DNA of 64,000 bases. Origin: Xanthostigma xanthostigma (Eukaryota > Arthropoda > Insecta > Raphidioptera > Raphidiidae). The translations under genes were made by a program, and so were the position numbers. Shown here one piece after another: positions 7,084 to 54,490 of this stretch (position 1 is its first letter; each line of letters opens with the position of its first letter). The stretch covers positions 2,294,001 through 2,358,000 of the forward strand of contig OY754476.1 of NCBI GenBank assembly GCA_963575645.1, in the 5' to 3' direction. The notes beneath the pieces were generated by a model. It was not told where the DNA came from. It saw nothing but the letters and a program-made list of their open reading frames with translations, and searched no databases.

Positions 7084-7566
7084 CCTATATACAGGTGACT
7101 TTTAAGTTGATGCTTTTTTTTACAGCGTGTAAAAATCAAATAGACGAGCAAATATTTCAGAGTTTTTTTATCAAAACTCAAAAATAAGAGAGAAACAGCC
7201 TTTCGAAGTTTAAATAAATTTTATTTAATTTTCTTTAATTTTGAGGTCGGTCCTGGGGTTATAATATTATGTCACTATGGAAATATGTTATTATTATCAA
7301 GTATTCACAGAAATTGTTCGAAGTTGTCAAAAACAGAACAATACACATACTTGATAATAACAACTTATTTCCATAGTGACATAATATAACCCCAGGACCG
7401 ACCTCAAAATTGAAGAAAATTTAATAAAATTTATTTAAACTTCGAAAGGCTGTTTCTCTCTTATTTTTGAGTTTTGATAAAAAAACTATTTGAAATATTT
7501 GCTCGTCTGTTTGATTTTTATATGCTGTAAAAAAAAGCATCAACTTAAAACTCACCTGTATGTAGG
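7084..7566. repeat. Foldback element with about 220-bp arms
   Basis: The left arm (7084-7305) and right arm (7347-7566) are near-perfect reverse complements separated by a 41-bp loop. Shared blocks include GAGGTCGGTCCTGGGGTTAT, AGAGAGAAACAGCCTTTCG and AAGTTGATGC. No reading frame. A transcript through it would form a very long hairpin. Confidence 0.9.
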
Positions 7567-8589: not shown

Positions 8590-9212
8590 TCTAATATATA
8601 AAGCTGAAGAGTTTGTTGGTTTGTTTGTTTGGTTGAACGCGCTAATCTCAGGAACTACTGGTTCGAATTGAAAAAAATTTTTTTTGTTGGTTAGTCCATT
8701 TATCGAGGAAGGCCATAGGCCAATGTTTCCCAAACTGTGGTTCGCGAGTCGATTTTTTATGGATCGCGACAATATCTTGAATGTATATTTTTGGAAATTT
8801 GGAAAAAATGTGTGCTGTCCGCAGCGGTGCCTTTAAAATAAATGTAAAGTAAATGAAATAAAAAGATAAAAAGTTTTTTTTTTGTGGACACATCTTTTCC
8901 GGCAAGTCAAATAATTCTGAGAAATTCAGTGTGCCGGGAGAGAACTGGGTCGCTGTAAATTGAGTTTTTAAAAAGTGGGTCGTAATTATTAAAAGTTTGG
9001 GAACCCCTGCCATAGGCTATATAAGATCACGCTACGACCAATAGGAGCGTAGCATGAATGAAAAATGTTCCAAAATATAACCTAAAATTTGTCCGTCCGA
9101 CAAAAACTTTTGAACGGTAACTCCGATCATCATGAAGTTTGGACGCAACATTCATCTCGGTAAACTAAGATGGACGTGCGTACTCATGACCCTCCCCCCA
9201 TTCGTTCTTTTT
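8590..9212 (+). mobile_element. Helitron-like element, 3' end missing
   Basis: Starts TCTAATATATAAAGCTGAAG and continues through the same conserved blocks (GAACGCGCTAATCTCAG, ATCGAGGAAGG, GTCCGTCCGAC) as the copy at 17947-18659. No CTAG end with hairpin is seen, so this copy is truncated. It is interrupted by a hAT element at 8721-9009. Confidence 0.65.
8721..9009. mobile_element. hAT-type MITE inserted in the Helitron
   Basis: Ends CAATGTTTCCCAAACTG and AGTTTGGGAACCCCTG, flanked by a perfect 8-bp duplication CCATAGGC (8713-8720, 9010-9017). Removing element and one duplication restores the GGCCATAGGCTATAT of the Helitron sequence. Confidence 0.9.
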
Positions 9213-9337
9213 ATATAATATAAACGAGATAGTTATATCACTGTCGTTCAGAAAAATCGTTACTAAGCGACGAATTTAAACTTAAGTACGGACTTAGTAC
9301 ATCAAATTTAATGGGGTATCTTATTTAAATAAAATAT

Positions 9338-9870
9338 TTTTAACAAAAAAATTGAACCGACTTCAAAAAATATGCACTAAAAAGTAAAAAATAATAATTA
9401 TTGTTATTTTTGGAGTCGGTGTCACATCGGAATTCGAAAGTAGCAATTTAAATCTTACATGTCTCTAGTTCTCGGAATAGATTTCATTTTGGCTGACACC
9501 GACTCCAAAAATAACAATAATAATTATTTTTTACTTTTTAGTGCATATTTTTTGAAGTCGGTTCAATTTTTTTGTTAAAAATATTTTATTTTTCTCTTTT
9601 TAGTGTTAGATAAAGTATTGCAATGGGTAGGTCAAGTATGCGTGCCTTTGAAATTTGAGAGTTTCCCTCGATTTCTCCGGATTCCATCATCAGATCCTGA
9701 CTTGGTTCCGATGGGACCACCTCGGAAGTGCACTCTTTCGAATAAAAAAAAAATTTGAAAATCTGTCCATAATTGACGGAGAAATCGGTGAACATACATA
9801 AAAAAACAAAAACAAAAAAATATACAGTCAAACATAGAACATCCTCCTTTCTTTGAAGTCGGTTAAAAAG
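9338..9870. mobile_element. Repeat element with internal palindrome, copy 1
   Basis: Begins TTGAACCGACTTCAAAAAAT and ends TTTGAAGTCGGTTAAAAA. An internal palindrome pairs about 9338-9425 with 9490-9587. A near-identical copy is at 53758-54304. Both contain an A-rich minus-strand frame with a shared stretch around KECTSEVVPSEPSQ. I see no known domain in it. Confidence 0.75.
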
Positions 9871-10635
9871 TACGTGACTGCCAAAACCGAGTGTAATAAA
9901 AAAAACATACTGTATGTAGTGAAAAAATTTTAAAGTAAAAAAGAAACAATACAAGGCCCTGTAATAGTCTAAAATCTTGAATCCGTCGACTTGTGTCAGT
10001 ATAATGTCGTGTAATTGCAATTTTTACAGTATTGTAACCGTGAATCCAATGTACAAAATATTGTTGGTACTTGGAACTGCTCAACAATTAGCCAACCTTG
10101 AGAATGTGAGAATACAGTAATTTACATCTGTTGAATGAATCATTCTATGGAAATTTATAGTCTCATTTATGTCATAATAACGTATTTTGTTTAGTAAAAG
10201 AATAATTTACACGTAACTTACGAAAAAAATTCCAATATTTTTCTCGTGACATTAAATATTTGAAAACTCAGTGTAATAAAAAATAAATTGTATTAATTAC
10301 GATATTTTATAGTTCGTTGCTTGGTTTTCGTATAACAATAATATTTTTAAATTTTAATCTGGTTCCAAAAAAAATTGTAACTAAATTCAATAGTAATGTT
10401 GACTACAGATCATAAATAAATAATACATCGGATTGCCAATAAGAAAAAAACTTAATTGTGTGTTTTGCAAAAACAAATAATTTTTCATAAAAAATGAGAT
10501 CCCATAAAAATGTTTGAATCAAAATATACAAGACGCTTGGAAATTACGAAAACATTAAAAACTGATTGTAAGTTTTTGGTGATTTGCGATTCATAAACTT
10601 CCCTCGTTTTGCATTCTTACTGTAATTAAGATAGA

Positions 10636-10898
10636 CGAGGGCGTAGATATGGGGGGGGGGGGTAATTAACCCCCCTCAGCCCCTCAAAACTAAAAATAAA
10701 ACTGAAAATATTACGAATACCCAACTAAAAAACAAAATTTAGACAATATTGCAACAGTGTATTAATTAGTTCGGGAATTAATATTTTGCTTGACACTTTC
10801 CTTCGTGAGTATTTTTTGTTTGATATTAACAAAACTTCGAAAAAAATATTGATTTTTTTGCTGTACCCCCCCTCAAGAAAAAAATATCTACGCCCTTG
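10636..10898. mobile_element. Small hAT-like element with poly-G and poly-C subterminal tracts
   Basis: Terminal repeats CGAGGGCGTAGATAT and ATATCTACGCCCTTG (inverted). Flanks AAGATAGA and CAGATAAA match at 6 of 8 positions, consistent with an old 8-bp duplication. Contains an 11-12 bp G run near the left end and a C run near the right end. Confidence 0.6.
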
Positions 10899-11338
10899 CA
10901 GATAAAAAAAAATAATTCAAACATTGTGAACTTAATAAAAGAAAATGTTCAAGTATATTTTTATAAGGCTAATTTGTTTGTATGACGAATCATGATAGAT
11001 GAAAAAATAAAACTTGGAATGAATTTAATAATATATATCTATTAATTAACTATATGAATCTTTGCCTATCTACTCAATGTGCGGTGAGTGAACGCAACAA
11101 AGCGTATTGAAAATATATCTGCGTCTCTTTCTTCGATGTAATTCCCTGATTTTTCCGATGATAGGATTGGTTGATGTACTTGCATTCAATCTGAATAAAG
11201 TATCTCTGTTTCAAAAACTTTGTCTTTTTCTATGACGTTAACATGGGCGTACCCAGCTTTTGGCCCAGGAGGGGGCAAATTAGAAATTTCTTAAACCGGG
11301 TCCCCCGTGCTTGTTTTGCCCTCCTGGATATGCCAGTG

Positions 11339-11417
11339 CTTAGGGCGTAAAAAAGACAAGTATATGTTTGCACCCTAATAGTTCGATTGCGATTTTTATT
11401 CCTATGCTCAGTATAGA
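11339..11417. repeat. Dispersed repeat, first of an inverted pair
   Basis: The stretch TTTGCACCCTAATAGTTCG...TTCCTATGCTCAGTATAGAA recurs as its reverse complement at about 29440-29521. Class unknown. Confidence 0.6.
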
Positions 11418-12460
11418 ATTACAGTATGCGGAATTTAAGCTGTGTGTAGTCAAGATAGTGTATCTTGTGTGGTAGTAGCTGTAGAACTGAGTCATACTCT
11501 GGTAATGCGAGGTGTGGTCCAATTTGTCAAAAAGCCATTCGGATTGGAATGTCCCGTTAGCAATATTTCTAATTGGGAATATTCCTTAAAAATTATTTCA
11601 AAGTAAATTGGATCAATGTTCAAAAGAGCATGCATAATGCATAATTTTTTACTGTCGTGTTAAGGAAGAAGGTCAAGTCATCAAAATTTCTTATTTTTAT
11701 TGTTCTGTTTTCCAATGCATGCATAGAATACATAGCGATAAAAATCTCAAACGTGCAAATTTTGCAAATCGTACCTTCTTCGTTCACACGGCACTGGCAG
11801 TATAACTGTAACTGTACGAAATGATTATACAGTGTGTTCACCAATAGTGGGTAACAGTAAAGAATACTTGTATCCTACTAGATATGCAAAAAAATTGAAT
11901 AGTTTTTCATTTAACTCGAAATTTACTATCCAAAACTGTCGAGGTACGTTTTTTTGTCCTTCAAACTCAACCGGAAGTGTACATAATTTTTTTTTTCAAA
12001 TGGCAACATATTTTTTTATATTTTCTAAATTCTTCATATAAAATTGTCATAATTTTTCATATGAAAATAGCTTGATTTTAAATTAAAATTACATTTAACA
12101 TACAATTGCTTTGTTACAGAATTGTCTGTCAATTCAGAGTTTGGTTGCAAAATAAGAAAAAGATTTTTTTAAACTAGCCTTGTGTGTGGTACTTGAAAAT
12201 TAAAAAGTCTAAAATTTTCACTATTTTGTCAGTCGTGTCCAGCACCGCTGAATTTTGAACTAACCTCGTATCTATTTTGTAAGCGCTTATAGCTGTAGAC
12301 TGAGGATGCATCTGTACACACTGTCTATAAATACGAATAAAAAAAAACGAAAGTGCATAAAAATAACCGGTCTTTATGGCGGAACGTAGAACTAGCAAGT
12401 TTATAAATTATAATTAAAACGAGGCAAATTCGAGCTTTTCCAAAATATTAGCGTTTGCAT

Positions 12461-12650
12461 TTTTTTGACGTGATAACGTCTTATAAATTGATGAATCACA
12501 TCAATATAAAAACACCGGCTGCATGCACGAAAAAGTGTAACGTTCCGCCTGACCCTGTGCGTGATTATTAAATATGATATTCGAGCGGAATACGTTATCA
12601 CGTAAAACTATCGTCCGTAAACCGACTTTACAGACAACCAATTTTTTTTT
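12461..12650 (+). mobile_element. GACGTGATAACGTC MITE, short subfamily (copy a)
   Basis: Begins T6-GACGTGATAACGTC and ends CTTTACAGACAACCAAT9. Subterminal inverted motif GATAACGT / ACGTTATC. Six relatives lie in the window. T-runs at both ends hide any target duplication, so the superfamily is not assigned. Confidence 0.85.
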
Positions 12651-13512
12651 TACTTTTTGTTTCACACCATTCTTACATACTTACAGGTACTACATAGGTA
12701 CTACAGATTAAGTTTTATTCGATTTAAAAATGCATTGAACCGATTACAAAAATAGTTTTGAAAAATTCAAGGGTAGACACTAGAGATTGAAAAAAATTCT
12801 CTGAATCGTTTCAAACCTGAAATTTAGTCAAGATTAAAATGTGCCGCGAATATTTTAATGGGAATTGGCAAATTCCCTCCCAAGAAAGGCAGGGTAAAAA
12901 CTAACCGGCAAATTCGGTTCCAAAATTTGTATGTAACTGAAACCTAAATTCGGTCCCGTTGTGGTCCGGGCTAAATATTTTAAGAGAGGGCCAGTAAAAC
13001 AAAACTGTAACATTGAATTTTTTTTTCATTGATTAATATTGAAAATATATACATTATAGACAAAGTTTACATAAGACTTAAACACATTTAAGTAATAAAA
13101 TGCAAACGACTTATTTCGTTTTTTTGTATATGATTCAATCATTTTTCTAATAAATTTTTGATAGTTTTTAACATTACTATTTGCAGTTTTAGCATTCGAG
13201 GGTACACTTTGTAATTTTATATAAGTTTCCATTTGAATTTCTTTAAGTTCATCAATAAAAATTGAAAAAAAAATGGTTGGGAGGGAATTTACCCAAACCG
13301 ATATTTAATCTACTACCTGTTGGGACCGAATTTACCATAACCCTCGACAGGGCCGGACTTACAATTTTTATGAAAACGCTAGTTTGCGTATAATGTATTT
13401 AGTTACTGCAGGGTGTATTTTTAATTTGGTACAGATGTTATATAAATAAAATATTTAAAATACAAAAAATACTATTCTTTTAAGGGGTTAATTTTTTAAT
13501 GTTATTCATAAA

Positions 13513-13660
13513 CAATAAGACAAAGTCCAAATCTTTGATTAACGTATGATTACTCCTCAATAAATAAAATTATCGAACAATTTTCCAGCCAATCTAATTA
13601 TTATTATTATTGTCTGAAAAATTGGTCGATAATTTTATTTATTAATAATACAAAGTCATA
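13513..13660. repeat. Fragment of the foldback family with AATAAATAAAATTATCGACC ends
   Basis: Contains CAAATCTTTGATTAACG and the inverted termini AATAAATAAAATTATCGA / TCGATAATTTTATTTATT. Related to copies at 19145, 47970 and 55261. Confidence 0.65.
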
Positions 13661-13725
13661 ACGGCTGTATTTTCAAATTTATTATATTGTCGGCAGGACT
13701 TAGCATTGCGAACTGAGTTTTTTAC

Positions 13726-14072
13726 GATATAGCTATAGTTTCTTATTGTTAAGAAACATCCTTTGTTACAATCCTATATTAGAAAAAAATCAATTTTGAA
13801 CAATGTCTCCGTCGGGGTTGCGATGGTGGGCATTGTTTAAAAATAATATAAAATGTTGTATAAGACTTAATTAATATCAAGTTCGATATAGCTATAGTTT
13901 GCGATTATTGTTAAGAAACACTCTTTGTTACAATGCTATATTAGAAAAATCTATTTTCAAACAATGCCCCCGTCGGAATCCGAACGGTGGCGTTGTTGTA
14001 AAATTTTTTTTTTCTAATATAGCATTGTAACAATGGCTGTTTCTTAAAAATCATAACAAACTATAGCTATAT
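13726..14072. repeat. Complex repeat: two direct copies and one inverted partial copy
   Basis: GATATAGCTATAGTTT...TTACAATGCTATATTAG occurs at 13726 and 13885 in direct orientation, and its reverse complement at 14013-14072. Both direct copies also share a CAATG..CCCGTCGG block. Looks like a rearranged foldback element. Confidence 0.7.
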
Positions 14073-14529
14073 AGAACTGGAGATTAATTAAATCTTTCGA
14101 ACTATACCGTATAATTTACATTTCATATTATTATGTTTGATATTGTTCAACTCTAATAAACTAACAGACAACTGCGTGTCCCGTGGGTACAAAAGAGAAA
14201 CACGGAAAACAAGTACACAACAGTTTTGTTTTTATTAGATGCTGACATTTTGACCAAACCTAACTCTGATATTGGTAAATGAAACTCTATTTTCGATATT
14301 ACCCAACCCTAATAAAGGGATAACTTTTGTGGTGTGGTTACAAGAAAACAAAATATACATCGGGACTTTGATTTTATCAGATGTAGGCATTTTTAATTAC
14401 TATATTTTAATCAATTATTTTATTGTAACTTATTATTTATTTAGGTAAATAAATTTATTTGTTGATTTACTAAACAAGCAAAATGTGTTTTCATAACGCC
14501 AAGCACAGAACGCAAACTGTATTAATTTA

Positions 14530-14602
14530 ATATTTCGTGCAAATAATGGGAACGCATCCGTGTTTCGTCTCAATCGCGTGCGAAGCCGCGGGAAACAGCT
14601 AG
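14530..14602 (+). mobile_element. Helitron 3' terminus
   Basis: GCGAAGCCGCGGGAAACAG followed by CTAG|T at 14599-14602 matches the CTRR terminus with a preceding GC-rich hairpin that is typical of insect Helitrons. The 5' end was not located. Confidence 0.55.
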
Positions 14603-16985
14603 TAATATCGGTAGTACGTGTATATATTATATAATCACGTATGCAAGGTAGATAATGGTCCGATACTGAACTATACGATGCCCAATTTAAAGTGTAATTA
14701 AATTATTTTATTTTCGAGTCCGGATTGTCGCCACTATGGTTTTCTTATTTTTTTTTTTTATTATTATACAGAAATCTGTTTCCGTGCAGGTTCCCGAGTG
14801 AAATATTGACACCTGTTAATAGTATAGTTTTATAATTAAGAAACAAAAGATATTTTGCGTTTCCCCACATTGATTAAAATGGAACACTGCATATTATATA
14901 AGTGTTCAAAAAATAGAACCATTTCCTAAGTTTTAAGTCACGAAGAAATTACATTCTTTGGAATATTAAGCAGTTTTGGACGTGGATAGTTTAGTATCAG
15001 GTGCAAAGAAATGATTTGTTTATTAAAATCCCGTGAGTGTATTTTTATCGAAAAATTAATGAAAATATTTATCCATTAAAAAGTTCACTTCATTTATTAA
15101 AATTATACAGAATATAACAAATATTTTTGCAAACATTTCAAGGTAATTCATTTTCTTGTTTTACCCGGCCTTCGCCAGAAGGAGAAGTTTTACTAACTTT
15201 CAATGCCTTTATAGAACGATTTTAAAAATTAATAGCAAACATTTCCATGCTCTTCATCGATTCATTTAGATTTTAAGCCTTCAATTACATTGACATATCA
15301 CAATGATGGCATTTTAATCTAAAATATTAAACTATATACGTCCAACATATTTGACCTTGCAAGTTAATTTAGTACAATTTTGTTCACACAGTAGTGTTCC
15401 CTTATTTTCCTCATACAAATTCCATCAGATCAAGAATGCGTAACGTCAGTTGTTTTTTGTTTTTGTTTTGTTTTCAATTTTTAGTTAATAATATAACGAT
15501 TTAGTGACTCATTTTACCTTAAAATGCAATTACCTAGTCAGTTTGAAAAAATCATATATATTAATACGCTAAGGTTAAAGATGTTTGCCTCCCTTTTTAG
15601 AAAAAACCTCACAATTTCTCCACATAAATCATATATCATTTTACAGATAATTGCTTGCTCTACTGACATTGACAACTAAAAAAATTATTATTGCTTTTGT
15701 TTTTGTAAATTAATTAAAATACAGCAACGCTGAACAACGTCTGCCATCTGACGGCTTTAACTTTGAAACAGCGAGCAACGTTGAACAACGTCACAGCAAT
15801 GCTGCATGATGCCATCTGACGGCTTAGCTCAACGCTTTTGCTACTTGCGCCTCTATATGACAATTTTAGTAAAATATTTCTTCGATCTGTCATCTGAGCT
15901 TCATATTGTAATACAACAAAAAGAAGAACGTTATAAGCAGTGTGCAAAATTAGAAACGAATTGAATACCTGCAATCAGATTTAAAAAATAATTTTGTAAA
16001 GTGATAATTATTATTTATTATACTTATTTAGTGCGAATAATTCGCACAGGTCACACTAGTCAGTTTATATTTCTCTAGTGCGAGAAGCACACGATCATAA
16101 TATTATGCCTGTATATGCATTGATAAGACGTTTATGATTTTTGTTGTTGAGGATTATTTGACAATATCTATTTATCGATGCACCGCTCTAATCAGTTTAG
16201 GGCTCTGTAGCCGACTAGGAACCCATATAGTATCGGTCTGTCTATCCGTTTGTCTGTCTGATGAAAATTTGTATACGGACGTAGATTGATGACCCAAAAA
16301 AACAAAAACGATGTGATTTTTCTTATGCGCGCTCAGCCGCTTTTTTAATTAATACCATGTTTAATACCTATGCATATTAAAGATAAGTACAATGCAAAAT
16401 AAAGAAGTTTTTCTGCAATCATTAAAATGTACATATAAAGTAGGATTTATTATCTTCTAAGCTGCTAAGTATTCATATTTTCTTCGTTAAGAATAACTGA
16501 ATACTAAATATTCATTTTTTATAACATTGATATTGTTGTCGTAGTTATTTTTAAAACAATTATTCTTTTTTATATTACTTTATGTACGTGACTGATTGTT
16601 ACAGTTAAATTTCTGATACAAAAGTGCGTATGTGTTAAAAATGTGTTCATTACATCCAACGTGACATTTTCTATCCGAATGTAAAAAAGATTTTAAGATA
16701 TTTTTACAAAAAATATAAAAAAATAGCAGGTATATAAAATTACATATATTGAAATTTCATTCTATTGACATTCTAAGAATCGAATTAAAGAAACTTGTAA
16801 CTATTACGTTACAAAAAATATTATTGTGCAATACGATCCTTGTTTTCATAATCATGATCACTCAAATAGTGAATCAGCTCGCATTCAGTATGCATTGTGT
16901 TCGATTAATATTACACTGTTATTTTATAATTTTTATTGTCGGATTAGGTTACACATGGTCATTTTCATGAAACGTTCAATTACAG
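14603..16985. other. Gene-free AT-rich intron or intergenic stretch
   Basis: No exon recognised. A short local duplication of AACGTTGAACAACGTC / CATCTGACGGCTT blocks is at about 15722-15832. A diverged CTGTCTATCCG repeat fragment is at about 16200. Confidence 0.5.
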
Positions 16986-17514
16986 CAGAGGTCTCCAAAC
17001 TTTTTTGTCTCGTAGACCACTTGCCATGTTTTTCGGTTTTGGGTAGAGACCCCCTGCTTATCTGATATTGATTTTTTGCAAATTCATTAATTTCAAATGT
17101 ATTTCTGACAACCGGTATAGTTCTACTCACTTTGAACGATTTAAATTTATAACGGTAGTGAAATGTATTGTGAAATGTTTAGTTTTATACATTTATTAAT
17201 TAGATTCAAATTAAACGAATCAAATTAAAATTTACTTTCTGTTACATAAAATAACTAAGCAAAAAATAAACAATTTTAGTGTGAGGGATGAACCTGATGC
17301 TTTAATAATAAATTTCCAACATTTAGCATCAATTTAGGTAGATTTACTCTTAAATCTCTTCGGTTAACGATGTCCAGTTTGTTTCTTTTTTTTTGTTAGG
17401 AGATTCACTATCGTTGGCCCCCATTTTCATTTCATGGACCCCCAATTTTTTTTCCCCGCTGACATGAACCCCTTGCAAATTGGGGGTCGATATAGACCAC
17501 TTTGGGAAACACTG
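16986..17514. mobile_element. hAT-type element, CCCAAA family (second copy)
   Basis: Ends CAGAGGTCTCCAAAC and TTTGGGAAACACTG. Flanks AATTACAG and AATGACAG form an 8-bp duplication with one mismatch. Same family as 5920-6455. Confidence 0.85.
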
Positions 17515-17946
17515 AATGACAGCATATAGCTGCGCACTATAGCATGACCGCGTCGAATATATGTATAGGGGTGCAAAATCAAATGCCTTATAGGGGTTGT
17601 TTCATGTGCAACATAAACGCAGTTGTGTAGTATATCAGGAACTCTTTAAACGTGAACTGCATTACATCATTATTATCACTATAAAATTGTAATCTAACAA
17701 TATTTAAAACAACTAAAATCAGTGTTTTCAATATGGTGTGATATGATCTAAAATACACTTCATTTTTCTGATTGTATATCTATAAGTGCAACGATATTAA
17801 AATGAAAAACAAATTCAATTTAAAAAAACATCCTCGTCATATTTTCCACTATTAATATAACATAGTACACATTACCTGTTGGCTGTTACTATCTCTTGCA
17901 TGGCGTCAATACACAGCGTGTGCAAAAAAATTATGAAGTGAATTAA

Positions 17947-18659
17947 TCTATACTAATATATAAAGCTGAAGAGTTTGTTTGTTTGTTTGAACGCGCTAAT
18001 CTCAGAAACTACTGGTTCGAATTGAAAAAAAAATTTTTGTTGAATAGCCCTTTTATCGAGGAAGGCTATAGGCTATATAATATTACGTTACGACCAATTG
18101 GAGCGGAGCATCAATGATGCAAGATGCAACTCAAAATTAGTCCGTCCGACAAATATTATCAGGTGAAATGCCTTAACTAAATATTGCAATATTAGCGCGC
18201 CAAGTATACAATTCCGGATAGCTCAATCGGTAGAGCGTAAGACTGTTCATTCCAGGATCTAGGGTTCAAGCCCCCACGTCGGCAAATATATTTTTATTTT
18301 TTTTTTTTTATTTTCTACATTGCTTTCTTCTAAGGCTTACATTTCAATTTTTCAAAATTTTATAACGACTAATTAAAAATAAATAAATCTAATTAATAGC
18401 TCATTTGAAAACTGTTACAACTATAGGCCTATAAAAATAATTTTCCTACAGTGTTTTCAATTAAATATTCATTATATTAAAAGAAATTTATTACTTAAAA
18501 AAAGTATAAAATTTTTTTTTTAACGACAAAAACTTGAACGATATTCTGAAGTTTGGACACATCATTCATCTCGGTAAACTAAGATGGATGTGCGTACTCA
18601 TGTCCTTTCCTTCCCCATTCGTTCTTTTGCACCCTGGTGAAACCGGGCGGGACCGCTAG
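17947..18659 (+). mobile_element. Helitron, complete ends, carrying a SINE
   Basis: 5' TCTATACTAATATATAAAGC preceded by A; 3' GGGCGGGACCGCTAG followed by T. These are the TC...CTAG ends and A/T insertion site of Helitrons. Interior matches 8590-9212. A tRNA-headed insertion sits at 18212-18501. Confidence 0.75.
18212..18501 (+). mobile_element. tRNA-derived SINE with target duplication
   Basis: The head (18212-18284) resembles a Lys-type tRNA: CCGGATAGCTC, a perfect D-arm stem GCTC/GAGC, box A TAGCTCAATCGG and box B GGTTCAAGCCC. The anticodon stem and acceptor stem are broken, so it is not a working tRNA gene. The body is followed by an A-rich tail. Flanks AAGTATACAA (18202-18211) and AAGTATAAAA (18502-18511) match at 9 of 10 positions, as for a LINE-mobilised insertion. 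Confidence 0.6.
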
Positions 18660-19144
18660 TAATATATAAAATAGAAACGGAGCCCCGTTCTGTATTTTCG
18701 TTTTCTTGCGGTGTTTTATTACACTTCAAATGAGAAACATTATCCTGTCTATCTGTACAGATTATTATGAAAACTTGGTACTACAAACTCGCACTTGACC
18801 CGTTTTCTTTAGTGTTCTATAGTCGTAACAGCGGAAATCATTCTTTATGTGTAGATAATAACGTGTGTAGAGTGTATAACTTATTATTTTAATGTTTTCG
18901 AATATTGATCGAACAGAACAATTTGTCCTTATTTGACGTAGGTATACTGTGGGAATATTTCCATTGCTCGCTGTTTGAAAATTCGTTAATAGATCGACAA
19001 TCACTACATACGGAAATTTTCCTAAATGAATTATTAATTCAACCGAAATAGTCCTATATTGCAAAAACAGCTATCAGTGTCTTTCTTAGTTAACTAAATA
19101 TCTTACAGTTATTACAATAATTGTCCAATATTTTGGTATCTAGC

Positions 19145-19228
19145 GTATAGCAAATTAATAAATAAAATTGGTCGATAATTTTATTTATTGAAGAGTTCTA
19201 ATCAGACGTTAATCAAAGATTTGAGTAT
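19145..19228. repeat. Short foldback relic, AATAAATAAAATTGGTCGAT type
   Basis: A hairpin AATAAATAAAATTGGTCGAT / ATTTTATTTATT followed by TCAGACGTTAATCAAAGATT, which is the reverse complement of the leader of the copies at 13513 and 47937. Confidence 0.6.
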
Positions 19229-20000
19229 AGCAAATTACTTGACTGAGTCAGTATTTGGGTAATGCTACTGAAAATTTAAGTACAAATATTGAAAGATTAA
19301 GTAAATAAGGACAGTTTGACAAAATCATTGACGTTTTTTTATGGTCTGGTTTTATTAAACTAAAAATATAATATCCTCAATTCGAGAACATCAATTTTTA
19401 ATTATTCTTTTTTAAACACGATCTATTTGTCCCGGAATATACAATTAATTTAGGTTCATTACATATTTTGTATCAATAATAATTAGTCGTGCAATTAATT
19501 AAAAAATTATTTGAACTCGATATTTTGCATGGGGAATTTCTATACCTGCATTTACTAAAATAAAATCCATTTCGCCTATAAAACTAATTCAGTTGCATAC
19601 ATGCTCTAATTATACAAAGTTACCTAGAAATTACTAGCAAATATTAATTATTGCGGAAACCTGGGATGTTATATTATATTATAGGTCAAACAATGTTAGA
19701 GAACCGTTAGCGGAACACAAGTCCAACTTTAAATTATATAAACACAATTTACCAAAATAGTAACCGTCGGTAATATTTAATCGTTTATAAGAATAGGTAA
19801 CCCGTCATTGTCATTTTTATCGAGCTCCAATTTGGCTGCAACTAATTCTATAGCATACATGCGCTCTAATTAATTATTCAAAGTTACGTTATTAACAAAT
19901 ATTAATTATCGTAAAACCTGGGATGTTACATTGATCAACTAATATAAGAAGACAAGCATGAGTACAAACAAACATGAAGTCGGTCAAAAATCGTAACTTT

Positions 20001-20330
20001 TTCATGTAATACTAGCCGCTGCGCGACTGAGATGAAACGCGACAGAGACAAGTGTAGCCTTCGACTCCACCGTATTCTTGTCTCACGGGATTACGCCCGC
20101 TCGGCAGCTAGAAAAACTCTTTACTGTGGAAAAATGACCATAAAGACTTTGAAACCGTCTTGAATTTCATGTAATATTAGCCGTTACGCGACAGAGATGA
20201 AACGCGGCAGCGACAAGTGTAGCCTTCGACTCCACCGTATTCTTACCTCACGGGATTACGCCCGCTCGGCAGCTAGAAAAACTCTTTACTGTGGAAAAAT
20301 GACCATAAAGACTTTGAAACCGTCATGAAA
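20001..20330. repeat. Two-copy tandem duplication, period 165 bp
   Basis: TTCATGTAAT begins copies at 20001 and 20166. They share GTGTAGCCTTCGACTCCACC, CACGGGATTACGCCCGCTCG and AAAAATGACCATAAAGAC with few differences. Likely derived from a Helitron-type repeat; no function seen. Confidence 0.85.
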
Positions 20331-20614
20331 CAAACACCCGCAATATTTCACAAGCGCATGCAATGGCTGGACTTACTAACTCCCGACTTATTATTTCATT
20401 TTTTAGCCGACATTTTCAAATTGAATCAAGCACATTAAATATAGTGCAAATTGCTTCTTCCATATTTCACTTCGCTGCGACTAATTCAATAGCAATGCAC
20501 AGTTAAAGTGCAAAGTGTAAATGCACCTTGATACATCAGGAAATCAACGCGCTTCTTTACTAAAAGGGATCAATTTAGAATGTGAGTGAAATTGAACGAA
20601 TGTCTCATTGATAT

Positions 20615-21124
20615 TAGTGATGTGCCGGATCGTTAAAAATGTATATCCGCGGATACGGATATTTAGTTTCAAATTCCACGGATACGGATACGGATCTTAA
20701 CTTTCTTAGAGTACGCAACGGTAAATATTGCACATCGACCTTTGGAAAGAGACTATCTGTTATGGGAAAAAGTTATTGACCTCTTTAAGAGTTAACTCTC
20801 ATAACAGATTGTCTCTTTCCAAAGATCGATGTGCAACATCTCATTATAAAGATAGTTTTTTAGTACCTTTGAGTTATGTACTATTGGTATGGTACTCACT
20901 ACGATAAATGTTTGCAATATAAAGGTGCCAAATACGATTTAAAAAAATAAAAAATAATCTGAATGGAATTTAACAGTTTTTCATTATTACCTAATCACCT
21001 AAATATATAAAATTTCATCTATGAATTGAAAATTAATAAGGTAAAAGATTCGCCAAAAACTAAAGGATACGGATCTTTCTTTTCCCTCGGATATCCGCGG
21101 ATACGGATATCCGGCACATCACTA
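20615..21124. mobile_element. hAT-like element with TAGTGATGTGCCGG ends
   Basis: Termini TAGTGATGTGCCGGAT and ATCCGGCACATCACTA, flanked by a perfect 8-bp duplication ATTGATAT (20607-20614, 21125-21132). Subterminal arrays of GGATACGGAT. An internal hairpin pairs GCACATCGACCTTTGGAAAG (20731) with its complement ending about 20835. Confidence 0.88.
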
Positions 21125-21489
21125 ATTGATATAGAAGCCAGGAAAAATTATATTTTTAATGGTCGCGTCAATAATAGCATCAAATGAATGTTCAATTTTA
21201 AACGTGCGTGAAAATGAACTAATTTGTCGTATTCGTCGTTGTCATCGACGTCAAGCGAGTTTTTTGTTTTTTAATGTGCGTGAATTTGAATGAATTGATA
21301 AAGAATCGAGGAAAAACGTGTCCTTTTTTCGTAACGATCTTTGTTATGAGTGTCATTCGTATGACCTGTTTTCAGTTTTGATGCGCGTGAAATTGAACGA
21401 GTATATCGCATCGGCGTAGAAGTGCGTTTGTGTCTCTGTGTATTGAATGAAATGAGCATGTAATTGTGCCGGAGACGGCAGCAGTGCGC

Positions 21490-21848
21490 GGTCAGTAACA
21501 AACGGCGCAAGACTGGCAAGAGACTGTATGTACTCTACTGATTACCAGACGCTAGGCATTGCGTTGCTGTCGGTGTGTATGGCTGTCAGAATTGCAGGAC
21601 AATTACATACACTCTTGCATGAACTGTAGAATCAGTAGCTTCGCTTAGTTAGTCTCGTGTTTACAATTTATATGACTTTTTGACATCAAAATTTAAAGTA
21701 TATGAATTCCTATATTTTTATAAATAATATATTTAACCGTTCATTACATAAAATATTAAAGAAATTTTAAGCGCGTTTTAATATCCTTACAGTAAATAAA
21801 AATTTATCTATTTTGAAAACTTACATTTGATAATTAAATAAAAAAAAT
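21490..21848 (+). promoter_or_regulatory. Candidate internal promoter and 5' UTR of the long arginine kinase form
   Basis: Initiator TCAGT at 21492-21496 (A+1 at 21494), with AGAC at +28 to +31 (21521), the position and core of a downstream promoter element. No TATA at -30. The sequence runs without interruption into the ATG at 21849. Inference from motif spacing only. Confidence 0.35.
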
Positions 21849-21925
21849 ATGGGCGGTTGTGCATCTAAAGATAAAAAAGCGGATAAAGTTGAGGAAGAGA
21901 AAACTGAAAAAGTGGAAGATATAAG
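21849..21925 (+). other. ArgK: Alternative first coding exon of arginine kinase (N-myristoylation signal)
   Basis: Encodes 25 residues starting [13 protein letters not shown], then highly charged Lys/Glu sequence. Gly2 and Ser6 fit the N-myristoylation consensus (MGxxxS/T); Cys4 is a possible palmitoylation site. The donor is AAG|GTTGGT. Joined to the acceptor at 26290 the reading frame continues through SKAEGNN into MPVSQ without a stop. The kinase core is normally cytosolic, so this exon would send a fraction to membranes. Confidence 0.8.
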
Positions 21926-24900
21926 GTTGGTTTATTTACAATAAACAGATTTTTCGTAAGCTTTTATAGACAAAGGGTGGATATTGTTACTTTTGTTGAA
22001 CAGGCTCGAATAATTTGTGGGCTGGGCCCTGGAATAACTGCGACTAACGCAGGATTTTATTCTCCAGTACCTATATTCTCTAAAGCCCGAAGCTTTCCGT
22101 AACGTGGCTTGATCAGTGGTGATAGTGGGTGTGTTTCCGACTTCAAACACGGAAGCTTTAGTAAACATAGATAAACATAAAATATATTACACTAAAGACC
22201 GGTTTCCCAAAACGAATTCATTTTATAAAAATAACTAATTAATTATATTAATATTTTTAATTCATCCAAAGACTTCAAAATAGACATTATTTTGACAGAT
22301 TAACCGTGTTTTTTATTTTTACTCGAAACGAATTATAGGTATATATATTTTTTAATTCTGGAAATTTTGTTTGTACAAATCAAATAAAAAAAAACAACGA
22401 AATCACAATATTTCACAGTTTTTTAAAGGATATTTATTAATGCACCAACTAGTAGTTTAAAATGTGATATTTAAAGCTTTTTTAGTTATTTAAATTATAT
22501 AAAAAATTAGACACGTTTTTTAAATTATTAAATATAATAATAACAAAAAAAGTGCACTAATATTTACTTTGCTATTTTTTTCATAATCATAAAGAGCATT
22601 TTGTTAATTTTCTGTGGCTACTCAAAAAAGCAGCATGAAATTAATATTTTAGCAGTAACAATTAAGTATTGTTCACTGTACTATTTTTACAGTTATAATT
22701 TAATTAACTAGCGCGTATTCGTGTATCTGTATTTTTAGTACATTCAATATTATTATGAGTGGTAATTAAATTTTATACGAATAATGCGATGATTTACTGT
22801 ATTTAATTCATATACAATAAAGTTTATTAAAATACCAGTAGTTTTTAATAGTTGGTATACGAAAAAAAATTGTTCTTTGCTCATATTTCTGAATTTTTCG
22901 TGTAATTATATTGGTGCTAAAAAAGTTGAATTCAAACAATACCTAAAAATACTATTTTTTTAAATCATTTCATAAAGCTAAAAGAATATGATATGAATTA
23001 CACAGTTTAAAATAAAAATCAGCGATTTTTTATCTTATTTAATTGTTATACAGTACAATTATTGCATTGTTATCATTCAGTAGATATATAATTAATTATA
23101 TAAGTAATTAATTTTTATTGTTCACTTTTTGATAAATTTTATTATCATTGAATTAAGTACGTATCTAATAATTATTGAAGCTCTTCAAAAATTGTACGTC
23201 ACATTATCTTATTTAAATTATATTTTTTTATCACTTTCTGAATTAAACTTCGCTGCACTACACGAAATCTGCACATTCAACCGATTTTAATGCGGTTTTT
23301 ATGAATAGAAAAATTGCAGCTAGCGCGTGTATTTGTAACATTCAAAACGCATTGTTTTTTTTTTAATTTTGTAAACAACTATTTTGCTTATCAAGAAGCC
23401 TGACGTTTAAAAAAATCAATTCCCAATATTGTACGTCAATTTAAGTATGTTTAATTTTGAATGAGATACAATATAGGTATTTTATACATAAATGTTTCTA
23501 GCTATATTAGTAACTTATACAATTGATTTTTAAAACTTGTTTAGATAACGTATCTTTTAATGGTTGTTCAACACTTGTATCAAAAAAAAAATTCTAAAGA
23601 AAGTACCAATTTTAAAAAACTTGTCTTTTTGGAAAACGACATGAAACAGTTGTTTTAGATTATTTGTTGAAAAAACAAAAGTCTATGTTAGTTTTTGAGC
23701 GCAATAAGAGAGTGAATTATTTTTGACGAGTGAAAAGTTAAATTTTCTTACCTATATATTCATAGAACATTTTAAGAACTTATTAGGTAACTTAATGCAC
23801 ATGTATATTAAATTTAACTGTACATATTTTTAAATTATGTGATAATATCAGCACGCGATGATATAATATATCCACAAATGGAAGCGTGTAGATCTTCAAA
23901 GCCACAGATCAGCCGAAGATTTTGCGGTAAAAAGGCATCCGGGTCTTTACATTTTATATTAGAATCCGGTCGAAGTCTGTCCATCTTTTTTTGAAGTATT
24001 TATGTGAATTCAGGCAATTTAACATTTACGTTTTATAATTAACGCTATTGGTTGTAACCATGGAATCGACGATCTAATCATATAAATAATTAATATATAT
24101 ATTTTTTTGTGTAAGTGTCAATTTTTTTTTAATATATGGTTTTTTGGCCTCTGCATCCTCTGACATAATCAGCCATGTCAATTGTCAATACAATCGGAAC
24201 AATTCCAGTGTAAGAACTGAAGAAAATATAAGTGTCAATTTATAACGTTATTTTGTGTAGTTTCACTACTGTAAGCCACACTGTCTTAGTAATTATAATT
24301 TTAACTTTGAGTATTGCATAAGAAGTTTTGAGTGCAGTGGCGAATTTACGCATTTTCCAAGTAATAGGCTTTTAAATTTTTGCCGCTCTTGCCTCTACAA
24401 TTGTCAGTGCCCAGATTATTTTTACAATCAAACAATTTGGTTGAAATTGCACAAAAAGTAGTTTTTGGGTATATTTCCGAGCTAATTAAAGCTTAATCAT
24501 GTTCGACTATTAAGGCGGAGTAATGTATGCTACTTATACAATAATTTACATTCGGTAAAAGTAATTCAATCGGCTAAAAAAAAGGAAATATTCGGACTCC
24601 AAAGTTGCCGCCCTAGGCTCAAACCTACTTAGCCTGCTGGTAAATCCGCCACTGTTTGAGTGTCACGACTCATGTTTTCTTCACGGTGGTTACGTCTTAT
24701 AAAAAGCTTTAAAAATTGATTGTTAACAATTGTTAAAAATATTAAGTTAATGAACAGCATGGGGGATTGTCGAAAAACGTGTCCGAGATAAAGACGAATT
24801 CTACACTTAAAATGTAAAGAAAAGTGATTTTTCGGCGACTATGTGGTCTGTCTGTGAGATTTTTTCATTCGCAACAAAACCTCTGCAAAGATATATTTTT

Positions 24901-27599
24901 ATTTAAACGTTTTTCTTTTAAATGTTAATCAGAACTAACCATATTAATTAATGAGGATCATTGGTTTTAGAAATATACGCAATTTTGTGCACCTACTTAT
25001 AAAAACTGCCCCGTCTTAAAAAAAAATTAAAAATAAGTTAAGATATTTTTAAATATTCTACAGGAAAATTTGGTTAAGGGGTCGCGAAATTTTTTTTTGT
25101 GAAAGCTGAAATACGTATTAAAAATCACAATTTTTTATAAATAGTTCGTTTTAGTCGGTAATTTGGAGAAACCGTGATCGCTATGAAGATTTTCCACGAT
25201 TAGTTGCCGGAATTATAAAATTAAAAAGTAAAATCTGATTACGCTAATTCATTTGTACTTTCAGCAGCGATACAGAATACAGAATTATAATAATAATAAG
25301 GAAGATAAATGAAAAAAAAGAATTAATTGCTGAAATATATTAATTTTTATAATGCTGACAAGTTTTTAAAATACATTTTTGGCAATAATGAAGACAGATA
25401 TAATTAGTGGCCTGTCTCATTTTTTTTTTTTTAAATAGTTATTTCATTTTTATGATAATTACTTATTATGCTGGAATGGCTCTGAATCCATTTTGGAAAA
25501 CGTATTGTTTTTTTGAAAAAAATGTAGATTTTTAAAATTATAAATAGCCTCACATAAACGCGAATATGGAAATTGTAAGACCGGACTTTTAGGCGAGTTT
25601 TGGTCGGTTCAAGTTTAGATTTTCGTTTTTTCCAATTTTTGTGATTTCAGTTATGGGCAACCAAAAACAATTTATTACTATGTTTTTATTATAAATGCGA
25701 TTTAAATAAAAAAATAAATAAAATGGTGTTTAATTACATCCACATAGTAATTTTGACACTATGACGTTTAATGATGAACAAATCATCCATAAAAAATTGA
25801 ATTAACCGATACGCCTTTGATCATTGATTCATACAAAATATATAAATAACACCGCGAGAGTATTATTTCAAAGTCAAAATATTTTTTATCGTGATTATAA
25901 TACATTATTATTAATTTTTAAACGGTCATTTATTTTTAGATGTCTGATGATTAAAGCCTTTTATTGAAAAGAAATTAAATTTAAATACCAAATAACATGA
26001 GGGTAATGCTTTTATCAAATGTTATTAAAATTAATAAAAACATATCTACAATTAAAAAAATAGTTCCTCTCATTGCAAATAAGTCCTGGTGAGAACTAGT
26101 TATATAATTATCGAACTTATGCATCTATAATAATCTTTAAATTTTTAATGGTGTTTGATTTTTCAATAACTGTTTTTAGAATATTAAAAAAAACAGTTTT
26201 GCAACATTTTAACTTGAAAATCGGTTATTAACAAAAATTGTACCGGAAGACTTGACAATAATAATAAATTTGGTAATATTTTTGTTACAGTAAAGCAGAA
26301 GGAAACAACATGCCAGTCTCACAGGAAGTTCTCGATAAACTCGAAGCAGGATTCAAAACCTTGGAAGCTTCTGACTCCAAGTCCCTTTTGAAAAAATATC
26401 TCACACGGGAAGTGTTAGACAAACTGAAGACCCAGCAGACATCTTTCGGCTCTACTTTATTGGATGTCATTCAGTCAGGTAAAGTTTCGAAAATGAAAAA
26501 CATTAGTTTGCGGTTGAAATATTGTTTTGAGGGAATATTTTTTATATAAACTGTATAATATAAATATTTAGAAAATAGTTTTTATTTATATTTTTTCGAT
26601 AAAGATAACGTGAAAAAAGTCTATTCTTTACAAAAAAGTAAACAGAAGTAAATTGAAGTGCGATAATAATTAATGAATTGTAATTTGTTGTTTTCAGGTT
26701 ATGCAAACCACGACTCCGGTGTAGGAGTTTATGCTCCCGATGCTGAATCTTACACCACCTTCGCCGATTTATTCGACCCAATCATTGAAGATTACCATGG
26801 TGGATTCAAGAAGACTGACAAACATCCACCAAAGAACTGGGGTGATGTCGACACTTTCGGCAATTTGGACCCGACAGGAGAATACGTAATCTCAACCCGC
26901 GTTCGTTGCGGTCGCTCCATGGAAGGTTACCCATTCAACCCATGCCTAACTGAGGCCCAGTACAAAGAGATGGAGGAGAAAGTATCGAATACATTGCGCG
27001 GCTTGGAGGGCGAACTGAAAGGTCAATTCTATCCGTTGACCGGCATGTCAAAGGAAGTACAACAGAAATTGATCGACGATCATTTCCTGTTCAAAGAGGG
27101 CGATCGCTTCTTGCAGGCGGCAAACGCTTGCCGTTTCTGGCCAACCGGTCGTGGTATCTATCACAACGACAATAAAACATTCTTGGTATGGTGCAACGAG
27201 GAAGATCATTTGCGTATCATCTCGATGCAGATGGGCGGTGACTTGGGTCAAGTGTACAGGCGTCTTGTAACGGCCGTCAATGATATCGAGAAACGCATTC
27301 CGTTCTCCCACAACGATCGTCTTGGCTTCCTCACTTTCTGTCCCACCAACTTGGGCACGACTGTTCGCGCTTCTGTACACATTAAGGTACCAAAGTTGGC
27401 TGCAAACAAGGCTAAGCTCGAGGAAGTAGCCGGCAAGTTTAACTTGCAAGTTCGCGGCACGCGCGGTGAACACACAGAAGCTGAAGGTGGCATCTATGAC
27501 ATCTCTAACAAACGCCGCATGGGTCTTACGGAATATGATGCCGTCAAAGAAATGTACGACGGCATTTCCGAACTGATCAAGATTGAACGCGAATTGTAA
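21849..27599 (+). CDS. ArgK: Arginine kinase
   Basis: Phosphagen kinase that transfers phosphate between ATP and arginine to buffer cellular energy. Exons: 21849-21925 (alternative first coding exon), 26291-26478, 26698-27599. From the Met at 26310 the protein is 356 residues, the usual arthropod length. In that numbering the substrate-specificity loop is S63-G64-V65-G66-Y68, nucleotide-binding arginines lie in STRVR (122-126), catalytic E225 is in NEEDH, reactive C271 in CPTNLGT and E314 in RGEH. The first exon adds 32 residues beginning MGGCAS; its split codon (AG|T) joins exon 2 in frame, giving 388 residues. Exon 3 is GC-rich with favoured codons, unlike the flanks. Identification is secure; use of the long form is inferred. 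Confidence 0.97.
21926..24334. other. Arginine kinase intron, left part
   Basis: AT-rich with no complete element recognised. A less AT-rich block at about 21985-22150 has no known similarity that I can see. Confidence 0.6.
24335..24654. mobile_element. hAT-type MITE, CAGTGGCG family
   Basis: Ends CAGTGGCGAATTTACG and GGTAAATCCGCCACTG with a perfect 8-bp duplication TTTGAGTG (24327-24334, 24655-24662). Contains GCCGCCCTAGGCTCAA near the right end, shared with 57773-58068. Confidence 0.92.
24663..26290. other. Arginine kinase intron, right part
   Basis: AT-rich; nothing recognised except the acceptor TTTTTGTTACAG at 26279-26290. Confidence 0.7.
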
Positions 27600-28722: not shown

Positions 28723-30320
28723 GATCAAAAATATATAAGGCCCGCCTGGTTCGCCGAGGCCCCTTGAATTTTGATTGTTAAAACGGTTGTATATTAGGAA
28801 GTTTGAAGGTTACCGCATCTTCAGACTCAACGGCTAACGCCTAACACCGTCAGATGATCCGCTAAACGGTGGCAGAGCCAGAGACAAAAGAACAAAGCCC
28901 ATTTGAGTCGTACACACCATTACTTTAGCGAGACAAGTCGATGTTTCTTCGCTCTGTACAATACAACTTGTATTGTCTCTGACAATACTTTTCTACTTCT
29001 GTAATGCAAACCTTCGACCATATATACTTATAGAGTATAGACTATTCACGCGGATAGCGGAATGTATTTGCTATTAGTTTCCATGGTTACATAATATGGT
29101 TTTGTGTGTAAAAAATTACAAAATCAGCTTGTCGGCTACGTAACTAATTTATTTATGACAGATTTTCAGAACAAAATAAAAGAAAATCCGATTTTTTTAT
29201 TTTAAAATATTTCCGACACTATAAAGTTTAGAAAAAATTTTTTTTGGAGAAATAAATAGAAAATAAACCGACATGAAAAATATACCATTATAAGAGAAAA
29301 ACAACGTTCTAGCGCATAGGTATCTATTCTGGGCATGCACCAATCTTCCTCAAAAACAATAGGGCTCTTCATATTTTCATGTCCAACATCTTACTTGGTT
29401 TCGATCCTCTCGTACATTCTATAAGGGTGCTATCCATATACTTTTATTCTATACTGAGCATAGGAATAAAATCGCAATCGAACCATTAGGGTGCAAACAT
29501 AATACTTCTGTCTTTTTTAAGCCGTAAGCACTGTATTGTTAACGGGAGTAGCTCCATGGATCAGCAAAAAGACAACCATTATAAAAAAGACAATCTGGCA
29601 ATTTTCCGTGTATGTGATATCACCCGAAGCCTGGCTTATGAATTGAACAATCCGTGAGTATGTATGGTCAAAGAGACAAAGCGTTGAGTTCGTAGCAGCG
29701 GGCAATTGGGTTGAACTATGAACGTCCTGCCCATAATAATTAAGTATAATATGGTCCTGCTTTTTGCAATATCTATAGTTTTTTAGATTATCTAAAAGAC
29801 TAAAACCTACTAAATTTAATACCTCTTTGTTCTGTAAGAAGTTTAGATAAGAATTGTTTAGGTAGAAGAATATAAGTACAGTAATTTCGATAAGAGTCTA
29901 CCTGAATTGATTTGAAATTTAGGGATTTTGTTTCTATGTGAACGTTTTTGAACAGGTAACAAATAATTCTATGTTTTGGTAGCAAAATCTTCTTATTTGG
30001 ACTGTTAATGGCGAGTGTCAATTAAGGCTGGTGAAGTGTCATTTTAAAATATAACGAAAATGAAATTTTCGATTATGAGTAATTTTTAAATGGTAAGTCT
30101 TAGATTTTAAATTAAATAGTGTCGTAAATGTGCTTTAAAATGTATTTTCTTAGTTTTTAACTAATCATTTTAGGATTATTTAAAATGCCGGCTCCTCTTG
30201 TATGGTGATTTTTAAATGTAAATAATTATTAATTTAATTATTACGGAACACATATATATTATTAACATAACTAATATATAAAATAGATTTAAATAATATA
30301 CTGTGATGTGGGAGTAACAA
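28723..30320. other. Intergenic region between arginine kinase and the receptor kinase
   Basis: No gene seen. Contains the inverted partner (29440-29521) of the repeat at 11339-11417. The promoter of the receptor kinase should lie here, but I could not place it. Confidence 0.5.
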
Positions 30321-33300
30321 ATGATTGATATTTTAATCACTGAAGATAAAATGAAGTTGATAGTTGTCATACTCATTGGAATATTTCAAAATAGCAATTC
30401 CGAAAATCAGTCCAGTATTGATTATGGAGGAGAACTTGTTCCTCCGCCAGGGTATTGTGCTCCATACAGTGGGAAGATATGTAGAAACTATGTAAATAGT
30501 ACACGACTGGTTTGGTTTAATATTTCGCACGACAATGCAGGCGGATGGCTTAATGAACAAATAACTGCCGGTCTTTGGGAAGAAATGGTTGTTGGTCTTA
30601 AAGAACCTTGCCGAAGCGCTGCAGAGGTACCTATCTATAGCTCTCCCTTTTAAAATATCGAATATTTGTGACCTTCTTTTGAATTTTCAGAAATTACTCT
30701 GCACATACGCCTTTCCGCAATGTCTCATGAAAGACAGTTATCCGATAGGCTTACCGTTATGTTATGAAGACTGTATTGCTGTCAAACAGCAATTCTGCTA
30801 TAATGATTGGGCCCTAATCGAAGACAATAAACAAAGAGGGATATATTTCAAATCTAGAGGACATTTTCAGTTGCCTGATTGTGAAGCATTGCCTAGATAC
30901 AGTTCCAGGAACAAAACAGTGACTTGTTCCCACGCAAAACTTACAGAAATGCACTTGGATGAAATTACATGCAAGTTAAACAATTTAATAAAAAAAAGTG
31001 TAGGTTTAAGATCAACGAAGACAGATTTATTACTTCACAATTGATATGAGTGCCAGACCTATCAATCAAAGTCGAGGATGAGTTATTTTATTTTCCTTTA
31101 TTACAATTTTTAATAAAGAAACGATAGAGACTTCTTAGTATAAACAACAACGCTTTAATAATCACGTTTCTTAAACCTACAGATTCAGTGAAACCTGAAA
31201 CAATCCCGAAACACGCGATTTCAATATAGACATTCCTTTTTTCAGACGACTGTGTTCGAGAAAGGGGTAGATTCTATCAAGGACAAATGAATGTAACTAA
31301 ATATGGTTTGTCCTGTCAACATTGGTCATCTCAAAGACCGCATTCACATTATCGTCCGCCGGATGTATTTCCTGAAATCCAAAATGCTGAGAATTATTGC
31401 CGAAACGCTGGAGGGGAAGAACCAATGCCGTGGTGTTATACCATGGATCCAGAAGTGCGCTGGCAACATTGTGATATACCAGTGTGCGGTCAGTATCAAA
31501 ATACGCATTTTTTCCATTCTTGTACCGTGCGCTTGTCGGTTTTTCGAGGCACATCAAAGGAGTCAAATAGGCAAATACGCAAATAAACCGTCCACACAAT
31601 GGCCATATTCAGAAGCGCACGTGCCGTGCACCTGTACAGACGTGCAGTATTTTTGTGTCTGTGCTGTACTGGAACAATTACTATTGAAAATGAATTGGGA
31701 CAATGAAACAGTGCTAAAATTCCTGGAATTTTGAACCTTGCGTTCTGTTGCCAAATGTTTATGTGTTTGCTATTTGACTGCTATGTGTGGATGGTCGTAT
31801 TTGCCTCTATTTGCATGTTTGTCTTGAACGTCATATATTTTGCCAAATACAACAAAAACCCAATAGCGAACACAAATAGCCATGTGAAGTGCCACCTTTA
31901 GATGTTGCATTATTTTACGCTTACATAATATAATAATACAATATACTTAGAATTGGTTTTAATTGCAGATAATGTAACAGTGATAGGAAATGAAATTTTA
32001 AAAAATATAAAAATGGACACATCTTTGACACCAAAACTTATATTAATTTTGTCTGGTATTGGATTTTGTTCTGTAGTGGTTTTATTATTACTTGTACTAT
32101 TGTGCCATCGTATTTACAAACACAGACTGGGTTACAATCCAGCTGCAACACAAGATGTTAGTATTGACTTGGATAAATTACCCAGTAATTTAGCTTATCA
32201 TAGGTAATAATGCATTTAAATTTTACGGTAAAATTTCGTTAATACGCATTTAGCATTGTCTTATCAATATTTACACTACCAAAATAATCAATGCTCAATA
32301 ATATGATATAAAAAATATACCTGAAAAATTGGCTCAAAAGCATTTGAAGGGTACACGGGAAGAAGGCGATTTGTCAGTAAAAATTCGAAATTAATTTTTT
32401 TATGCCATCTTGTAGCCAAAAGTCGTACCTTTCTGTTGGTGTATTCATTTTAGACAAGAATACGCTAGGTCAAAAGTTATAAGCGTTGAAAGAAATGCAT
32501 CAGCAAGTAAATGGTACGATCTTAAACACTTCAAAATGCTCTCTTGCATAATTTACATTTTTTGACAAACCGCCTTCTTCCCGTGTACCCTTCATTTTAA
32601 ATCGCCAACTGGGCATATTTTAAAGTATTTTTTCGAAATTAACTTATCATAAATGTAAGTAAAGATGTGAAAAATAAAAGCGTATTAATAAAAATTTACA
32701 ATATATTTGTATTGAAAATTTTACGTGAACATTTACTGAAATAACGAATTTTTAGAACTGGAATCCAATTAAATCCAAAATTGGAAAAGTTAGAATTTCC
32801 AAGGAACGATATTATTTATATCAGAGATTTAGGTCAAGGCGCTTTTGGTCGTGTATTTCAAGCAAAAGCACCGGGTTTGGTGCCTGGTGAAGAGTTTACT
32901 CTAGTTGCTGTAAAAATGCTTAAAGATGAAGCATCGCAAGATTTACAAGTAGACTTCGAAAGAGAAGCTTGTTTGTTAGCTGAATTTGATCATCCAAATA
33001 TTGTGAAATTACTTGGAGTATGTGCTGTCGGTAGACCAATGTGTCTTTTATTCGAATATATGGGAAAAGGAGATCTCAATGAATTTTTACGGTATTTTAA
33101 ATAACTTTAATTCGACCAAGACGCCACATATTTTCTAAGTTGAATACTGTTTACTTATTTTACAGATCTTGTTCGCCCAGTAATTACGTATTAAGAAGTT
33201 CTGACGACGAAGTATTTCGCGATGCTCGACTATCACATCGCGATTTATTAAATATTGCTCGTCAAGTGGCCGCTGGTATGGTTTATCTATCTGATCGCAA

Positions 33301-54304: not shown

Positions 54305-54490
54305 AAATAATGTGATTTTCTAAGAGAATTAAATTTCCCACAAAAAAGGTCCTTAGTACTAAATTCATGAATTCATTATTTTTAAGAATATGCTCGTTTA
54401 AACATTAATTAACTAAAGAAAATACGATTTTTACGCGGGAATGTTGAAACGAATATATCTTTGAAAATAATTAATTCACGGATTTAGTAC

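Follow-up and report, generated by a model that had tools for sequence, protein, structure and literature searches.

The location of phosphagen kinases within the cell matters, and colocalized ATPases gain privileged access to the phosphagen pool (PMC13215054, available text). Among the closest described systems is the Drosophila arginine kinase (AK) gene ArgK1, for which the same source gives seven annotated transcripts and reports that the first exon of the RA and RE forms, MFALWYLTFAVDEIRK, suffices for mitochondrial targeting. As proposed for the locus described here, a single AK gene has a common catalytic exon, and location depends on which 5' coding exon is joined to it (PMC13215054, same text), and ArgK1 therefore provides a precedent for the gene architecture that we propose, whereas the fly first-exon peptide is not of the MG type. 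In T. brucei, AK3 carries an N-terminal extension (with Gly2, several lysines and, at positions 4-6, small residues) that directs the enzyme to the flagellum, and its authors proposed that the extension acts like the acylated tail of calflagin (PMC4517888, available text). The likeness lies in an AK with a Gly2-type N-terminal extension and lysines; the differences are that AK3 is a separate duplicated gene rather than an alternative exon, that its acylation is proposed by likeness and that its target is flagellar (PMC4517888).

A further parallel is the creatine kinase of the sea urchin sperm tail, a myristoylated phosphagen kinase in which, according to the available text of a review, N-myristoylation promotes membrane association (PMC13024116). 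It differs from the enzyme considered here in being a creatine kinase and in belonging to a deuterostome. The sea urchin flagellar enzyme is encoded by a separate gene. Soluble and acylated forms from one insect gene are known from Drosophila RDGC, whose isoforms S, M and L have different N-termini that lead to soluble and fatty-acylated plasma-membrane forms (PMC6161916, available text), RDGC being a protein phosphatase and not a phosphagen kinase. The preliminary description of the present locus had called AK normally soluble, which holds for the usual form of the enzyme, but lipid-tailed phosphagen kinases were already in print and the idea is not new, the sea urchin creatine kinase and T. 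brucei AK3 having preceded it. By titles and abstract openings, no acylated insect AK isoform was found among the open-licence papers listed, nor any match to the letter string MGGCAS; automatic gene models may already hold the exon.

The window, by which we mean the whole 64,000-nucleotide stretch of Xanthostigma xanthostigma DNA that was analysed, is part of contig C13 in a 623 Mb genome assembled as 28 contigs and contains an AK gene with a core of two exons separated by a GT-AG intron (Table 1). When joined to the candidate exon upstream, the gene encodes a 388-residue protein that matched PF02807 at residues 53-119 (E = 1.4e-32) and PF00217 at residues 179-387 (E = 1.1e-79), and among the 49 PDB sequences matched the best was an AK and the second a taurocyamine kinase. 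FCPTNLGTT and CNEEDHLR are both present in the AK translation, the reactive Cys of CPTNLG and the Glu pair of NEEDH being AK active-site residues, and by domain scores and motifs the predicted kinase behind the extension is intact. When the first 89 residues were aligned to PDB sequences, 22 of the 23 matches began at residues 30-40 and one at residue 54, and Met33 of the joined protein corresponds to the start region of solved AKs. The upstream exon would therefore add 32 residues beyond the ordinary start, outside the Pfam domains, and as predicted it extends the protein and does not supply a piece of a domain that would otherwise be lacking.

Other open stretches of the window gave Pfam matches to a kinase, a kringle, an FAD oxidoreductase, an aminomethyltransferase fold, ribosomal protein L13e and the eEF1 beta acidic region. 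Repeated DNA was also seen: a 274-base unit occurs seven times in tandem at 1-1919 (98% matching), and a 165-base unit twice in tandem at 20000-20329, upstream of the AK gene. Frames at 9586-10023 and 54006-54404 (both on the minus strand) have in common the peptide KFFFYSKECTSEVVPSEPSQDLMMESGEIEGNSQISKARIL and 13 of the 15 residues that follow it, probably as parts of a dispersed repeat, and the first of these frames had no Pfam match. Similar stretches with CCGCGGATA-type boundary words, recognized by eye, lie at about 20620-21120 of the window, near the AK gene, and at about 90-600 of L007, near its paralogue, and these too are probably a dispersed repeat. The motif scan returned three near-identical starts, at 51081 (+) and at 46577 and 57648 of the reverse complement, which are perhaps copies of one repeat.

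The candidate exon begins ATG GGC GGT TGT GCA TCT and spans 77 nt, or 25 codons plus two bases, encoding an N-terminus MGGCASK; the MGGCAS exon is thus present at 21849-21925 as the preliminary description had reported. Its last two bases, AG (phase 2), are followed directly by a donor at 21926 (AAG/GTTGGT), and the AK exon at 26291 is preceded by the acceptor TTTTTGTTACAG/TAAAGC. The splice that had been claimed, in frame across a split codon to the core exon, fits the reading frame: AG and T form Ser at 21925/26291, KAEGNN follows and leads into the usual AK start, and the three joined segments (21849-21925, 26291-26478 and 26698-27599) remain open to the stop codon. Just 5' of the ATG lie an in-frame TGA and TAA, so that only splicing could carry the frame beyond this point in the 5' direction, and the start codon is in good context (AAT ATG G, with A at -3 and G at +4). 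MGGCASK conforms to the N-terminal pattern M-G-{EDRKHPFYW}-x-x-[STAGCN]-{P} (PS00008-type), and Cys4, a candidate palmitoylation site, adjoins the Gly2 region, in agreement with the earlier claim of an N-myristoyltransferase consensus with an adjacent Cys. The 32-residue extension has a cluster of lysines (K7, K9, K10 and K13) and a pI of 4.9 overall, its first 13 residues having a pI of 9.1 and an acidic stretch following them. Vertebrate BASP1/CAP-23 has an N-terminus with an MGG start, Ser6, a Lys cluster and a Lys/Glu-rich disordered tail; that protein is unrelated and has no Cys at position 4, and the likeness to the exon product is compositional only.

Table 1. Observed and putative features of the AK gene on the window, in order of position (a slash marks a splice boundary).
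Feature	Positions	Strand	Basis
Speculative noncoding first exon	21494..21525	+	TCAGT, with A+1 at 21494; AGAC at +28; weak donor
Putative 5' UTR part of the candidate exon, if the acceptor at 21792/21793 is used	21793..21848	+	ATATCCTTACAG/TAAATA
Candidate alternative 5' coding exon, coding part	21849..21925	+	Frame, motif, coding score
First AK core exon, canonical start Met at 26310	26291..26478	+	Frame, Pfam, PDB alignment
Last AK exon, catalytic domain and stop codon	26698..27599	+	

Three AK-like places were found in the genome: the gene itself, a paralogue on contig C2 (L002/L007, G000:C2:1232021-1234000) and a divergent third gene. The paralogue is 68% identical, has an intron at the position corresponding to 26478/26698, and carries its own ATG start, MSFQCLCSLDIPKLEKGF, in its first core exon. 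No MGGC-type exon was seen near it by eye in 2.5 kb of L007, nor did a script find one with Cys in the 8.9 kb upstream. A paralogue with its own start in the core exon and without a Cys-bearing motif ATG upstream counts against the reading of 21849-21925 as an alternative exon. Neither a retrocopy of the AK or MGGC transcript nor a second copy of the exon was found in the 623 Mb genome; a retrocopy would have proved the spliced mRNA, and the failure to find one counts against the exon. Genome searches with 21791-21925 and with the GC-richer stretch 21380-21680 returned one match each, the window itself, and no repeat was seen at either place.

The third AK-like gene (L003:661-2046; G000:C2, ~9732666) consists of one open frame of 461 residues with 29% identity over the matched part, and in the alignment ARPNCIG stands in place of FCPTNLG and NVLDH in place of NEEDH. 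It is likely to be a pseudoenzyme; the reactive Cys and the Glu pair look lost. Beyond this genome, 17 pattern matches to the AK core in viral contigs yielded no confirmed relative, and 47 in prokaryote genome contigs yielded two (56% identity), with no insect relative in either set. Bacterial MAG contigs titled Sulfurospirillum and Campylobacterales (L004 and L005) encode AK-like proteins at 56% to the query, and either transfer or contamination may account for these genes.

A chance origin would make 21849-21925 a piece of AT-rich intron or upstream sequence that merely happens to be open, the true 5' exon of AK being noncoding and elsewhere and translation always starting at the Met encoded at 26310. 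We consider this unlikely, and it draws some support from the number of places at which such an exon could arise, since the 20 kb that precede the core exon (6292-26290) hold 295 plus-strand ATGs, of which 44 are candidate exon starts whose frames run for 59 nt or more without a stop and reach a phase-2 GT. Only one of the 44, that at 21849, is followed by the N-myristoylation motif. On both strands of the window, with this exon counted, the motif follows 10 of 2029 ATGs and is accompanied by a Cys at positions 3-6 after two of them; one other motif ATG, at 27231, falls within an AK coding exon. The 8.9 kb that precede the start of the paralogue contain 126 ATGs, and the motif follows four of them; two of the four open frames of 84 and 186 nt, and none has a Cys at positions 3-6. 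The pooled rate for the window and the paralogue's upstream DNA, with exon 21849 excluded, is 13 of 2154 ATGs for the motif and 1 of 2154 for motif plus Cys. With the counts picked post hoc, about 0.3 motif candidates are expected among the 44 at the pooled rate and about 1.4 at the paralogue's local rate, as against about 0.02-0.04 candidates with motif plus Cys. Chance could produce the bare motif, which is not decisive because 4 of the 126 ATGs before the paralogue have it, and the same count led us to lower slightly our confidence both in the exon and in its dual acylation. The composition of the exon bears on the same question. A codon model built on nine exon-bearing open stretches of the window (1464 codons, with the AK last exon included and exon 21849 left out; one stretch, 30318-30653, has no Pfam match) gave the exon log-odds of 7.0 bits over 24 codons, or 0.29 per codon, the training stretches themselves giving 0.10-0.45 bits per codon (n = 9). 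Among 193 stretches of 25 codons that open with an ATG and are presumed to be noncoding, 3 reached a coding score at least as high, and none was as rich in the residues K, E, D, A, G, S, T, V and Q taken together, this measure having been picked after the peptide was known. Among 2000 dinucleotide-preserving shuffles of the exon, 198 stayed open, so that an open frame by itself is not decisive, and 28 were open with a coding score as high, which again favours chance. Against a chance origin stands the coincidence of motif and Cys, a charged and coding-like composition, a usable donor and a matching frame, which are jointly not easily produced by chance. On the combined sequence evidence, a real coding exon is likely, if not certain.

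The donor of the candidate exon is not of the strongest type. By a donor matrix, GTTGGT at 21926 ranks 21st among the 1081 GTs in 6292-26290 and second among the 22 in 21849-22300 (2.7, equalled by 2.8 at 22129), and the AK donor at 26479 scores 4.0. An acceptor-like site, ATATCCTTACAG, closes at 21792 with TAAATA after it, and the 56 nt of leader from 21793 to 21848 are free of ATGs, both of which points favour the exon; a leader that ran unspliced from 21494 would contain five ATGs. TCAGT at 21494 sits in 200 bases of 49-51% GC with neighbours of 38% and 30%, and the signal there resembles the arthropod initiator (Inr) with a downstream element (DPE). RGWY at +28 accompanies 3 of the 82 TCA[GT]T sites in 1-26291 and 2 of the 78 TCAGT sites on the reverse strand; the five-base form of the DPE is absent at 21494 and was found only at 19591 among the 16 TCAGT sites in 15001-26291. 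With the weak donor at 21526 (ACT/GTATGT, score -0.1), the 21494 signal is a weak one and gives a hint of a promoter. The weakness of this signal and the modest strength of the donor at 21926 both count against the exon. As to the Drosophila mitochondrial first-exon peptide, its best score in 1-26290 (+) of the window was 27, with ten shuffled queries scoring 25-33, and this candidate was rejected. The search for a separate promoter of the short isoform gave four TATA plus Inr rows at three places, none convincing, which favours a second alternative in which the exon is real and translated and either its tail serves something other than anchoring, such as solubility or interaction, or every transcript of this species includes the exon and Met33 is reached by leaky scanning. 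The acidity of the extension taken whole, basic as its first 13 residues are, would also suit such a role. Set against this is the fit of MGGCASK to the myristoylation motif after a start codon in good context, and we hold this second alternative to be quite improbable.

We favour, with reasonable confidence, the reading of 21849-21925 as a true coding exon, used alternatively at the 5' end of the main AK gene, with a product that is probably acylated. Exon-bearing transcripts would give rise to the 388-residue AK, with its first 32 residues forming a charged and probably unstructured tail. N-myristoyltransferase, which occurs in well-studied animals and for which Ser6 and Lys7 are favoured positions, would probably attach myristate to Gly2 of GGCASK once Met1 is lost. 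A Cys adjoining myristate is a typical palmitate site, and Cys4 would be a natural one for a DHHC palmitoyltransferase and is perhaps palmitoylated, while K7, K9, K10 and K13 would aid binding to acidic membranes. A share of AK would thereby be placed beside membrane ATPases, and transcripts without the exon would be translated from the Met encoded at 26310 and yield the usual soluble AK of 356 residues. Proteins that combine a myristoyl motif with a Cys and a basic N-terminus are usually retained at the plasma membrane, and the case for anchoring follows from this well-established behaviour of N-termini in which MG-x-x-x-S is accompanied by a neighbouring Cys. The DNA shows the sequence, the frame, the splice-site dinucleotides, the motif and the coding bias, and from these we infer transcription, splicing, acylation, location and a separate short transcript; the preliminary description's overall interpretation, membrane anchoring included, is plausible and partly supported. 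The fullest version of the proposal, in which the alternative exon yields a dually acylated plasma-membrane AK (myristate and palmitate) beside the soluble enzyme, so that splicing without a separate gene would be enough to bring the phosphagen buffer to membrane ATPases or into the sperm tail, is put forward tentatively, as a possibility somewhat on the doubtful side. Sperm or neurons as the tissue would be guesses by analogy.

If true, the arrangement would give insect cells a simple means of supplying the plasma membrane or the sperm tail, and would be a counterpart to the myristoylated creatine kinase of sea urchin sperm. In a genetic model, a lipid-tailed AK isoform of this kind could be removed through its exon while leaving the soluble enzyme untouched.
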